From the NCBI RefSeq assembly GCF_024199985.1, contig NZ_JANARS010000003.1:62001-126000 (forward strand): a stretch of DNA of 64,000 bases. The letters are read 5' to 3'. Under the pieces are notes generated by a model that was not told the DNA's origin, did not search any database, and worked only from the letters and a program-made list of their open reading frames with translations. Position 1 is the stretch's first letter; each line of letters opens with the position of its first letter. The position numbers and the translations under genes are program-made. Shown here in pieces: positions 2,888-58,860 of this stretch. Origin of the DNA: Nocardioides pinisoli (GTDB lineage Bacteria; Actinomycetota; Actinomycetes; Propionibacteriales; Nocardioidaceae).

Positions 2888-3361
2888 ATGCGACTCCGAT
2901 CCCTCGCGACCGCCGCCGCGGTCATCGCGCTCGCCGCGCCGCTCACCTCCTGCGGGTTCGACTACGCCACCGAGCGCGACTACACCCCCGCCGGCGGCAG
3001 CAACAACCGCGAGGGCGTGGTCGACCTGCTCTCCGCCGTGGTGGTCTCCGGCACCGAGGGGTCCGGGACGTTCGTGGCCTCGCTGTCCAACAACGACGGC
3101 TCCGAGGAGCAGAGCCTCACCGGCATCTCCGGGGGCGACGGCACGACCATCGAGGCGGCCGAGTTCGAGCCCGTCACGATCCCCGCCGACGGCCTGGTCA
3201 ACCTGGCCGAGCCGCCCGCCGACATCGTCCTGACCGGCGACTTCACCGCGGGCGACTTCATCCCGCTGGCCGTCGAGTTCGGCAACGGCGAGCGCATCTC
3301 GCTCAACGTCCCCGTCGTCGCCAACGACACCGGCTACTGGGAAGGCATGGACGCCTCATGA
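2888..3361 (+). CDS. LpqE-like secreted lipoprotein
   Basis: 157 residues with a type II signal peptide: basic MRLRS, a hydrophobic stretch, and lipobox LTSC with the Cys at residue 22. The remainder is a compact, acidic, beta-rich domain without catalytic motifs. In mycobacteria the lipoprotein gene lpqE sits beside carD, and the position and overall layout here are similar, so an LpqE-like identity is likely. LpqE-type domains resemble the PCu(A)C copper-chaperone fold, but no Met/His copper motif is visible. Its TGA overlaps the gpmA ATG (ATGA at 3358-3361), implying translational coupling. Confidence 0.65.
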
Positions 3362-4101
3362 CGCACACGCTCGTCCTGCTCCGCCACGGCGAGAGCGAGT
3401 GGAACGCCAAGAACCTCTTCACCGGCTGGGTCGACGTCGACCTCACCGAGAAGGGCCGCGCCGAGGCGGTCCGCGGGGGCGAGCTCCTGGTCGAGGCCGG
3501 GCTGCTGCCCGACATCGTGCACACCTCGCTGCAGCGCCGCGCGATCACCACCGCCCACCTGTCCCTCGACGCCGCCGACCGCCACTGGATCCCGGTGAAG
3601 CGCTCCTGGCGCCTCAACGAGCGCCACTACGGCGCGCTCCAGGGCAAGGACAAGAAGCAGACGCTGGCGGAGTTCGGCGAGGAGCAGTTCATGCTCTGGC
3701 GCCGGTCTTTCGACACCCCGCCGCCGCCGCTCGACGACTCCTCGGAGTTCTCCCAGGCCTCCGACCCGCGCTACGCCGACCTCGGCGACGAGCTGCCCCG
3801 CACCGAGTGCCTCAAGGACGTCATCGCCCGCTTCCTGCCGTGGTGGGAGGCCGAGATCGTGCCCGACCTGCGCTCCGGGCAGACGGTCCTGGTGGCTGCC
3901 CACGGCAACAGCCTCCGCGCGCTCGTCAAGCACCTCGACGGCATCAGCGACGAGGACATCGCGGGCCTCAACATCCCGACCGGCATGCCGCTGGTCTACC
4001 GCCTCGACGACGACATGCGTCCCACCGTGGTCGGCGGCGAGTACCTCGACCCCGAGGCCGCTGCCGCAGCCGCCGCAGCCGTCGCCAACCAGGGTCGCTG
4101 A
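3358..4101 (+). CDS. gpmA: 2,3-bisphosphoglycerate-dependent phosphoglycerate mutase
   Basis: 247 residues, the normal dPGM length. The phosphohistidine signature [10 protein letters not shown] is near residue 8, [10 protein letters not shown] follows near residue 88, and the second catalytic His is in [12 protein letters not shown] near residue 180. The enzyme interconverts 3- and 2-phosphoglycerate in glycolysis and gluconeogenesis. The C-terminus ends in an alanine-rich tail. It is translationally coupled to the upstream lipoprotein. Position next to senX3-regX3 matches mycobacteria, where gpm1 lies beside that pair. A tandem palindromic repeat follows and may end transcription. Confidence 0.93.
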
Positions 4102-4120
4102 CCAGAGCCCGCTCCCGCGC

Positions 4121-4283
4121 GCGCCGTCGTACGACCCGCCCGCGAGCGGTGTGTGAGGCGGGTTCCTGCCGAACGAAACCCGCCTCACGCACCGCCCGGG
4201 CGCGCGCCGTCGTACGACACGCCCGCGAGCGGTGTGTGACGCGGGTTCCAGCCGAACGAAACCCGCCTCGCGCACCGCTCGGG
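4121..4283. repeat. Two tandem 83-bp palindromic repeat units
   Basis: Copies begin at 4121 and 4204, an exact 83-bp offset. Each starts with GCGCCGTCGTACGAC and contains a long hairpin. In copy 1 the arms are 4146-4164 and 4177-4195: 19 pairs with one G-U, around a 12-base loop. The repeat lies between the convergent gpmA and phoU, so it could act as a bidirectional terminator. The tandem duplication with near-identical loops looks like a REP/BIME-type intergenic element. Confidence 0.85.
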
Positions 4284-4310
4284 TGAGCAGCGCGGGCGGC
4301 GGGGCGTACG

Positions 4311-4961
4311 TCAGTCGCGCGGGGGCATGTCGCCGGTGACGACGAAGACGACCCGGTTGGCGACCGAGACCGCGTGGTCGGCGATGCGCTCGTAGTAGCG
4401 GCCGAGCAGGGCGATGTCGACCGCGGCCTCCACGCCGTGCTTCCAGTCGGTGGAGAGCAGCTCGGTGAAGGAGCGGCGCCGCAGCTGGTCCATCACCTCG
4501 TCGTCGCGGCCGAGCTCGATGGCCGCCTCGACGTCACGGTCGACGATGATGCTGCGCACCCGGCGCACCATGTCCTCGGCGGTGCGCGCCATCTGCTCCA
4601 TGGTCGGCCGCAGCTCGTCGGGCACCGCGACGGACGGCACCCGGAGGCGGGCGATCTTCGCGACGTGGACCGAGAGGTCGCCCATCCGCTCGAGCTCGCT
4701 GACCATCCGCAGCGCGGAGACGATCATCCGCAGGTCGCCGGCCACCGGCTGCTGCAGCGAGAGCAGCGCGAACGACGTGTCGTCGACCCGCTCGCGGGCG
4801 GCGTCGATCGCCTTGTCGTTGCTGATCACCTGGTCCGCGGTGTGCACGTCGCCGGTCATCAGCGCCTTGGTGGCCTCTCGTACGGCGACCTCGACCTGTC
4901 CGCAGATGTCGGACAGGTCGGCGAAGATGCCGTCGAGCTGGTCATGGAAAGCCTCACGCAT
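4311..4961 (-). CDS. phoU: Phosphate-specific transport regulator PhoU
   Basis: 216 residues comprising two PhoU three-helix repeats. The first begins MREAFHDQLDGIFADL and includes the metal-cluster acidic helix SELERMGDL near residue 95; the second includes YYERIADHAVSVAN near residue 195. PhoU links the Pst phosphate transporter to the histidine kinase and keeps phosphate-starvation signalling off when phosphate is plentiful. The reading frame continues far upstream antisense to senX3, but the ATG at 4961 is the standard start and sits a few bases after a TAGAGT -10. Divergent from senX3 with a shared PHO box. Confidence 0.92.
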   Translation of the reverse strand: MREAFHDQLDGIFADLSDICGQVEVAVREATKALMTGDVHTADQVISNDKAIDAARERVDDTSFALLSLQQPVAGDLRMIVSALRMVSELERMGDLSVHVAKIARLRVPSVAVPDELRPTMEQMARTAEDMVRRVRSIIVDRDVEAAIELGRDDEVMDQLRRRSFTELLSTDWKHGVEAAVDIALLGRYYERIADHAVSVANRVVFVVTGDMPPRD

Positions 4962-58652: not shown

Positions 58653-58860
58653 AAGGTGGCGGCACATCGCGCGCGCTCGCCGCCGCAACCCGCGATCCGC
58701 CGCCACCCCCGGGGCCGAGGCCACAAAGGTGGCGGCACATCGCGCGTGCTCGCCGCTGCAACCCGCGATCCGCCGCCACCCCCCGGGCCGGGGCCACAAA
58801 GGTGGCGGCACATCGCGCGCGCTCGGCGCCGCAACCCGCGATCCGCCGCCACCCCCGGCC
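58653..58860. repeat. Three tandem copies of a 73-bp palindromic repeat
   Basis: Copies begin at 58653, 58726 and 58799, each exactly 73 bp apart. Each contains GGTGGCGGCACATCGCG and the near-complement CGCGATCCGCCGCCACC as 17-bp arms with two mismatches around a 19-base loop. The 358-bp gap between the ABC exporter and the convergent GH15 gene (58611-58968) holds these repeats, a 20-bp palindrome and no gene. Confidence 0.85.

Follow-up and report, generated by a model that had tools for sequence, protein, structure and literature searches.

Two near-identical palindromic units stand in tandem between the convergent genes gpmA and phoU of Nocardioides pinisoli, and they raise the question of what kind of element this array is and what, if anything, placed it there. 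We followed the array through the 64,000-nucleotide stretch of DNA in which it was noticed (here called the window), through the whole genome (4,534,944 bases in 18 contigs) and across 59 Nocardioides genomes. The features at the locus are as follows.

3358-4101, plus strand: gpmA (His_Phos_1, E 1.3e-31), convergent neighbour of the array
4126-4135, unstranded: first copy of the leader word GTCGTACGAC, from a word search
4144-4197, unstranded: family A unit 1, with half-sites at 4144-4166 and 4175-4197 that face each other across 8 bp
4198-4226, unstranded: spacer between the units, holding GTCGTACGAC at 4209-4218
4227-4280, unstranded: family A unit 2, with half-sites at 4227-4249 and 4258-4280
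4311-4961, minus strand: phoU (stop at 4311; name assigned by eye), the other convergent neighbour

The array between gpmA and phoU

The palindromic units, 54 bp each, lie 83 bp apart, and the first begins 42 bp after the gpmA stop. The 83-nt copies at 4109-4191 and 4192-4274 run head to tail and are 92% identical, and TRF reported a repeat in the window at 4117-4283 with a period of 83, 2.0 copies and 0% indels, bearing out the preliminary description of tandem, near-identical palindromic units with an 83-bp period in a convergent gap. Of the 19-bp stem and 12-base loop given there, the 12 nt hold and the stem was put slightly short: in the second copy the arms of the inverted repeat measure 22 nt each and are 86% complementary, with 12 nt between them. 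The word GTCGTACGAC does lead each copy as described, yet it is common in the window, with six exact copies and 19 at up to one mismatch against 4.4 expected. The core pattern (up to three mismatches) occurs twice in the window, against none expected from 100 shuffles.

On either strand these units are predicted to form a strong hairpin (z -3.6 to -5.8), as would suit an RNA element that terminates transcription in both directions or stabilises 3' ends where genes converge. Against such an element stands a search of 3900-4500 for T-tract terminators (a stem-loop followed by a T-run), which found none. Searches for known RNA families gave, at gathering scores, nothing but tRNAs in the window, and at nine loci with E up to 1 no more than two miRNA matches, both scoring far below the cut-offs.

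A DNA search of the genome with the array gave at least 78 matches (40 of 219 candidates scored), and a sequence-only model built from 44 units placed family A at 38 loci, with at least 77 units (at least 150 strand matches). The pattern GCGGTG-N38-CACCGC occurs 96 times in the genome against three for the reversed control. Had the genome held no further copies, a simple local duplication would have been left as the explanation, as the preliminary description recognised; the copies across the genome rule that explanation out and reveal a dispersed family. Beyond this genome, a strict A unit is carried by 60 named stretches, all of them from Nocardioides.

We read the gpmA-phoU gap by eye and with a loose scan in 28 of the 59 genomes, ignoring hits beyond the gap. 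Its contents differ among relatives, so the array is not simply inherited: the gap holds one variant (A') unit in G030, whose gpmA is 96% identical, one A-like and three A' units in G017, two A' units in G046, two A' and two A-like units in G019, two A-type units 72 apart in G007, and an array remnant in G053. One A and one A' unit lie exactly 83 bp apart in G012, a mixed pair in the 83-bp register that speaks against explaining the spacing by plain tandem duplication alone. By the same reading, the gaps of G021, G022, G005 and G045 contain no unit, and a gap that lacks the array in some close relatives also counts against an RNA role. The sequence after gpmA is common to G022 and G012, with other sequence in place of the array in G022; a clean empty site was found in none of the gaps compared. 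Beyond these relatives the gaps contain other palindromes or none.

As separate observations, the same gap contains unrelated palindromes in G010, G014, G056, G001 and G029, and a stretch like GGGCTCAGCGAGGTTGAGCAAGCCCCGCGGCTGAGG, common to the gaps of loci L282, L288, L289, L290, L291 and L296, looks like another repeat.

Geometry and placement of two palindrome families

The window holds a second palindromic array, of a family that we call B.

58655-58853, unstranded: family B array, three units of 53 bp at 73-bp spacing; the genes on either side were called as convergent
58655-58707, 58728-58780 and 58801-58853, unstranded: the three B units

An A unit consists of two inverted half-sites of about 23 bp each at a fixed distance, their outer ends 50 bp apart, around a centre that is variable in sequence and unconserved. 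At the first 21 loci, a search for hexamer pairs of 47-58 bp returned pairs of 50 bp with a single exception of 48; one further 50-bp pair, which lies within phoU (L001), does not form a unit and is not counted. Across the 60 named Nocardioides loci, over lengths from 40 to 60, 50 bp accounts for 126 hexamer pairs and no other length for more than six, although these loci were fetched by the 50-bp pattern and hence have at least one match each by construction. A B unit is GGTGGCGGCACATCGCA, 19 variable bases and then the inverse; the genome has 59 such units at 15 loci, one of them in the window (one partial match of 25 bp, E 0.1, is left out of the count), and hexamer pairs sought within 46-64 bp measured 53 bp every time.

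Neighbouring units keep favoured distances near 61, 72, 83 and 94 bp, in steps of about one DNA turn. In this genome the 39 centre-to-centre distances of family A fall at 60 (1), 68 (3), 72-73 (7), 81-85 (27) and 94 (1), and the 44 of family B at 72-75 (38), 82-83 (5) and 86 (1), none of either family lying at 76-80; measured between unit starts, one A pair, which includes the 48-bp unit, has a distance of 80. Distances between A units in other species are mainly 61-62, 72 and 83, with singles at 56, 59, 64, 66, 75, 79 and 81 and some above 130. The best-fit period is 10.8 for the other species, 11.05 for all A distances, 11.6 for family A and 12.2 for family B of this genome, the own-genome values having been rounded and entered by hand; none of 2000 uniform draws fitted as well, under a null that ignores shared descent. 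With own best fits of 11.6 and 12.2, the helical period is not fixed by the distances in this genome alone.

The spacers carry a signature of their own. The pentamer GTACG/CGTAC, the leader word GTCGTACGAC of the preliminary description, is present in the spacers of the 79-85 bp class in 18 of 21 cases (13 of 15 loci) in this genome and in 10 of 13 elsewhere, against 61 of 1335 control stretches here and 127 of 2286 elsewhere. The 71-73 class has it in three of six cases here and five of 20 elsewhere, and the 60-62 class in none (0/1 here, 0/11 elsewhere).

Two-sided changes in the A arms exceed those in shuffles (covariation score 0.164 against 0.124, with 0/500 shuffles as high), a score inflated by the relatedness of tandem copies. 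A hairpin would also produce such changes, which is a point against the protein-partner reading favoured below. At the same time, three positions of the A arms are often mismatched (27, 20 and 16 of 44 units) and the B arms vary independently (0.080 against 0.075 shuffled, 129/500 as high), both of which speak against an RNA element, and a hairpin RNA needs neither a fixed unit length nor a variable centre nor favoured spacings.

Placement bears on the same alternative. The 38 A loci are divided among convergent (20), codirectional (13) and divergent (1) gene pairs and overlaps with a called gene (4), so that 34 are clear of called genes, and the 15 B loci among convergent (6) and codirectional (7) pairs and overlaps (2), whereas 40 array-free gaps of at least 80 bp are convergent in 8, codirectional in 23 and divergent in 9 cases. 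These counts come from a crude, home-made gene caller, which missed phoU and thereby tallied the window's own convergent A locus as codirectional. The excess of convergent placement (20/38 against 8/40) agrees with a terminator or stabiliser between convergent genes; taking it together with the points above, we consider it improbable that the array is primarily an RNA element.

Copies from separate arrays of this genome resemble one another little (mean identity 0.71, best 0.94, over 2216 pairs), and their dispersal is accordingly not recent; recent transposition within this genome was entertained and set aside as unsupported at such low cross-array identity. Within arrays the mean identity is 0.86, and this contrast in sequence suggests that local amplification came later than dispersal here. 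The difference between within-array and between-array identity is absent or reversed in two species with mixed A and A' units, N. glacieisoli and N. potassii.

Genes bracketed by the palindromes

The preliminary description likened the array to a REP/BIME-type element and expected a REP-associated tyrosine transposase (RAYT). The REP-like organisation stands, in that the units are dispersed, mostly intergenic and rare between divergent genes, but membership in the RAYT-linked REP/BIME class does not: PF01797 (Y1_Tnp, RAYT) has no match in this genome, the same search being positive in five of 14 control genomes, and the gene that the palindromes bracket is a different, nuclease-like one. Although the genomic habits of the units are the same as those reported for REPs (PMC3733652), these results leave scarcely any credibility to a classical REP/BIME moved by a RAYT that has since been lost.

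Other genes are bracketed in this manner. PF04480 (DUF559) has five matches in the genome, and four of these genes (C to F) each lie between repeats of their own that are 965-977 bp from one another.

L133 at C4:28 kb, L134 at C2:105 kb, L135 at C1:813 kb and L136 at C1:830 kb, all in this genome (G000): the DUF559 genes C to F

Genes C, D and F have inverted half-sites on both sides and E a direct repeat with a palindromic core; elsewhere, in the part of the genome scanned, the C to F half-sites gave only two different two-mismatch hits of C. The fifth match (L137) is a 144-aa frame that was checked for A and B units only. The heptamer CCACAGG adjoins the upstream repeat of three of the DUF559 genes (L133, L134 and L135, at about 2340-2365).

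Prompted by these bracketing repeats, we built a profile of the C to F proteins, and it led to the first partners of family A: one in N. alpinus (E 1.6e-4), with A units on both sides, and one in N. furvisabuli (E 2.5e-4), with A units next to it. A later profile added partners in Nocardioides sp. Soil774 and an uncultured Nocardioides. The N. furvisabuli protein has weak matches in 49 of the 59 genomes at E 0.001 and ten close matches (56 to 100% identity), and the sole close copy in this genome, G000:C7:6156-7082, has A units on both sides (L205: 1226 and 1311; 2440 and 2522). By model R1, six of the ten close partner genes have units on both sides (L203, L204, L205, L209, L211 and L212) and one on a single side (L210); the remaining three (L206, L207 and L208) have A' units (GCGGTGGTCCAGCCACATTC) on both sides, seen only by a looser hexamer scan. 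A word of at least 15 letters is shared between the flanks across the gene at 11 of 19 A-type and 13 of 30 B-type loci, and missing at 8 and 17 of them, against five of 541 control pairs (600 drawn, those holding an A unit dropped); L219 stops at a contig end, which makes its flanks inexact.

Arrays and gene occur together within one clade. All ten genomes with a close A gene have at least 28 A matches (E 0.001), whereas among the 49 without it two have two matches each and 47 have none. The ten A-rich genomes are close relatives, with gpmA 87-100% identical to that of N. pinisoli, and the genes flanking the partner are common to all ten, which makes this one association by descent and confounds the co-occurrence accordingly. 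Within the gpmA-close group only G005 and G045 are informative, with gpmA at 89 and 88%, no close A gene and two A matches each. G012 is A-rich even though an in-frame stop interrupts its partner copy.

More distant partner genes occupy other places: those of G038, G010 and G008 share a second one, and those of G024, G013, G026, G043 and G029 share flanks with none of the others, L219 being left out of this flank comparison. Their flanks contain diverged palindromes, such as GCGGTGAGCCAGGACCGG (G024), GCGGTGAGTGGGCAACCG (G038) and GCGGTGGGTTCGGCTCGG (G008), with diverged units on one or both sides in a layout similar to that of A and, partly read by eye, with repeats 73, 82 or 83 bp apart at six of eight loci. 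Generic 50-bp hexamer pairs were rejected as proof of amplification beside these diverged partners, their counts not being raised: genomes with relatives of the A gene at 44-51% identity have 6 to 20 GCGGTG units, within the 1 to 21 of the remaining genomes.

Family B repeats the arrangement. Two B arrays, 1.1 kb apart, bracket gene C11:192224-192997, which has no Pfam match and by eye resembled DUF559 proteins. A search with this partner matched 36 of the 59 genomes at E 1e-10, eight of them at 56% identity or more, and seven of these eight close genes have units on both sides, the eighth (L237) on one. All eight genomes with a close B gene have B matches, against three of the other 51: G040 (25 matches, with only a 45% relative of the gene), G045 (18) and G005 (4), the last two having no B partner gene at E 1e-10. 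The 18 matches of G045 are possibly a relic left after gene loss. Model R2 was given 20 of the 30 B-type loci, and among 12 more distant ones only L245 matched, on one side.

Bracketing of this kind is also what a homing-type selfish gene would leave behind, if the nuclease cut the arrays and repair copied the gene in, the arrays being kept for some other reason. The A gene does sit between units on both sides, as genes C to F sit between their own repeats, but dozens of arrays would here serve as targets and only one close copy of the A gene is present, with the same flanking genes in ten genomes. We therefore regard homing as a poor prospect for explaining the arrays.

The partner protein and a proposed mechanism

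The A, B and DUF559 sets of proteins are distantly homologous by profile comparison, HHalign giving 8e-9 for A against B, 5e-7 for A against the DUF559 proteins of this genome and 2e-16 for B against DUF559 (the A set comprising 18 of the 19 A-type proteins, L219 left out). A nuclease signature of the Vsr/DUF559 type, DL-x-E[YF][ED]G-x2-H-x-D-x-R, is present by strict pattern in 17 of 18 proteins of the A set and 29 of 30 of the B set. Pfam gave no match above cut-off for the B partner or any of the four A partners scanned, DUF559 (PF04480) included, while the C and D proteins of this genome pass its curated cut-off; one A partner has a chance-level match to MTES_1575 (E 0.24). NCBIfam and PADLOC had no match to the same four A partners, nor had a PDB sequence search with one of them.

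A single-sequence AlphaFold model was unusable (mean pLDDT 34). AlphaFold on four sequences reached a mean pLDDT of 48, with values of 50 or more only around residues 47-160. For residues 39-159 of this low-confidence model, the top of 200 chains compared was the AbiEi structure 6y8q (Z 9.0, rmsd 4.5, 117 residues aligned), in a list where the unrelated ANT(2'') scored Z 8.1 and Rv2827c (1zel) Z 5.8; Foldseek with the model returned nothing at E 0.001. The better-modelled part of the A partner may thus resemble the AbiEi antitoxin. AbiEi and Rv2827c are described as binding 23-bp inverted repeats at their own promoters, in one case four in tandem (PMC7319586), and the A half-site, at about 23 bp, offers a suggestive parallel by analogy.

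Such binding could equally belong to a regulator. On that account the units are dispersed operators: an AbiEi-like regulatory or architectural protein binds both its own promoter and the arrays across the chromosome, the nuclease part has another use or has become vestigial, and the units spread by ordinary duplication. The binding habits of AbiEi and Rv2827c and the helically favoured distances between units would both fit. Units also lie downstream of the partner gene, however, divergent gene pairs, where promoters are expected, hold only one of 38 A loci, and the nuclease signature is conserved in both the A and the B set, which makes dispersed operators unlikely, though they are the strongest of the alternatives considered here.

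Comparison with known systems places the families beside, but outside, the REP elements. REPINs are two inverted repeats around a spacer, dispersed and intergenic, and specific REP families are tied to specific RAYT genes flanked by the same palindromes (PMC3116915, PMC3733652). Like the REPIN-RAYT systems, or REPtrons, of the GTAG REPs as these sources present them, the Nocardioides palindromes are dispersed and intergenic and flank a partner gene. Unlike them, the partner has a Vsr/DUF559-type signature in place of a Y1/HUH tyrosine transposase, the half-sites point towards each other across a constant distance, and the spacing of tandem units goes in steps of about 11 bp. Since no RAYT was found, we do not file family A under REPIN-RAYT, despite the similar working. 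The CGTC REPs, described in PMC3733652 as short dispersed palindromes with no identified transposase, are alike in both respects and differ in belonging to other phyla and in that a partner gene is proposed for family A; the main text of that paper mentions neither Actinobacteria nor Nocardioides.

On the protein side, AbiEi and Rv2827c offer a parallel in their 23-bp inverted repeats, and AbiEi heads the structural matches of the better-modelled part, whereas the Nocardioides protein adds a nuclease-like C-terminal part and the palindromes are dispersed genome-wide. DUF559 is found in PD-(D/E)XK, Vsr-like endonucleases (PMC12907096); to this DUF559/MTES_1575/Vsr-like group the partners are linked by distant homology to the DUF559 proteins of the same genome and by shared signature residues, and set apart by the want of a Pfam match above cut-off in the A and B partners and of any link to palindromes in the papers searched. 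The literature searched gave no paper that links dispersed palindromes with DUF559 or AbiEi-like nucleases, which is weak evidence of absence given that subscription papers and preprints were mostly outside the search.

The reading we favour, and hold to be probable, is that family A is a REP/REPIN-like palindrome family whose partner is an AbiEi-like/Vsr-like protein and not a RAYT. Its starting points are the observed site, geometry, bracketing, homology and co-occurrence within one clade; binding, cutting and mobility are what we infer from them. The AbiEi-like part would bind the half-sites, much as AbiEi and Rv2827c bind their 23-bp inverted repeats, and contacts between bound proteins would hold neighbouring units on one face of the helix. 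The nuclease part would then nick or cut in or near a unit, and repair would copy units or amplify them in tandem. These would survive at the least harmful sites, in intergenic stretches clear of divergent promoters. On this reading the partner gene G000:C7:6156-7082 would have given rise to the array at 4144-4280 as a non-autonomous product, and if the array also acts as an RNA hairpin or a terminator in both directions, that role would come second.

A broader possibility, which we advance tentatively, is a separate class of repeat systems, in which AbiEi-like/Vsr-like nuclease fusions would recognise and copy tandem palindromes of their own and maintain them in helical register, without tyrosine transposases and in many parallel families (A, A', B and C to F) within one genus. 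Some REP-type palindromes, such as the CGTC REPs as treated in PMC3733652, have no known enzyme; here a gene, a DNA site and a geometry can be named together, and binding, cleavage and mobility thereby become open to direct tests in soil bacteria that are harmless. The families also hint at a possible role for some of the DUF559-type genes of actinobacteria, and they provide a natural example of phased half-site arrays.
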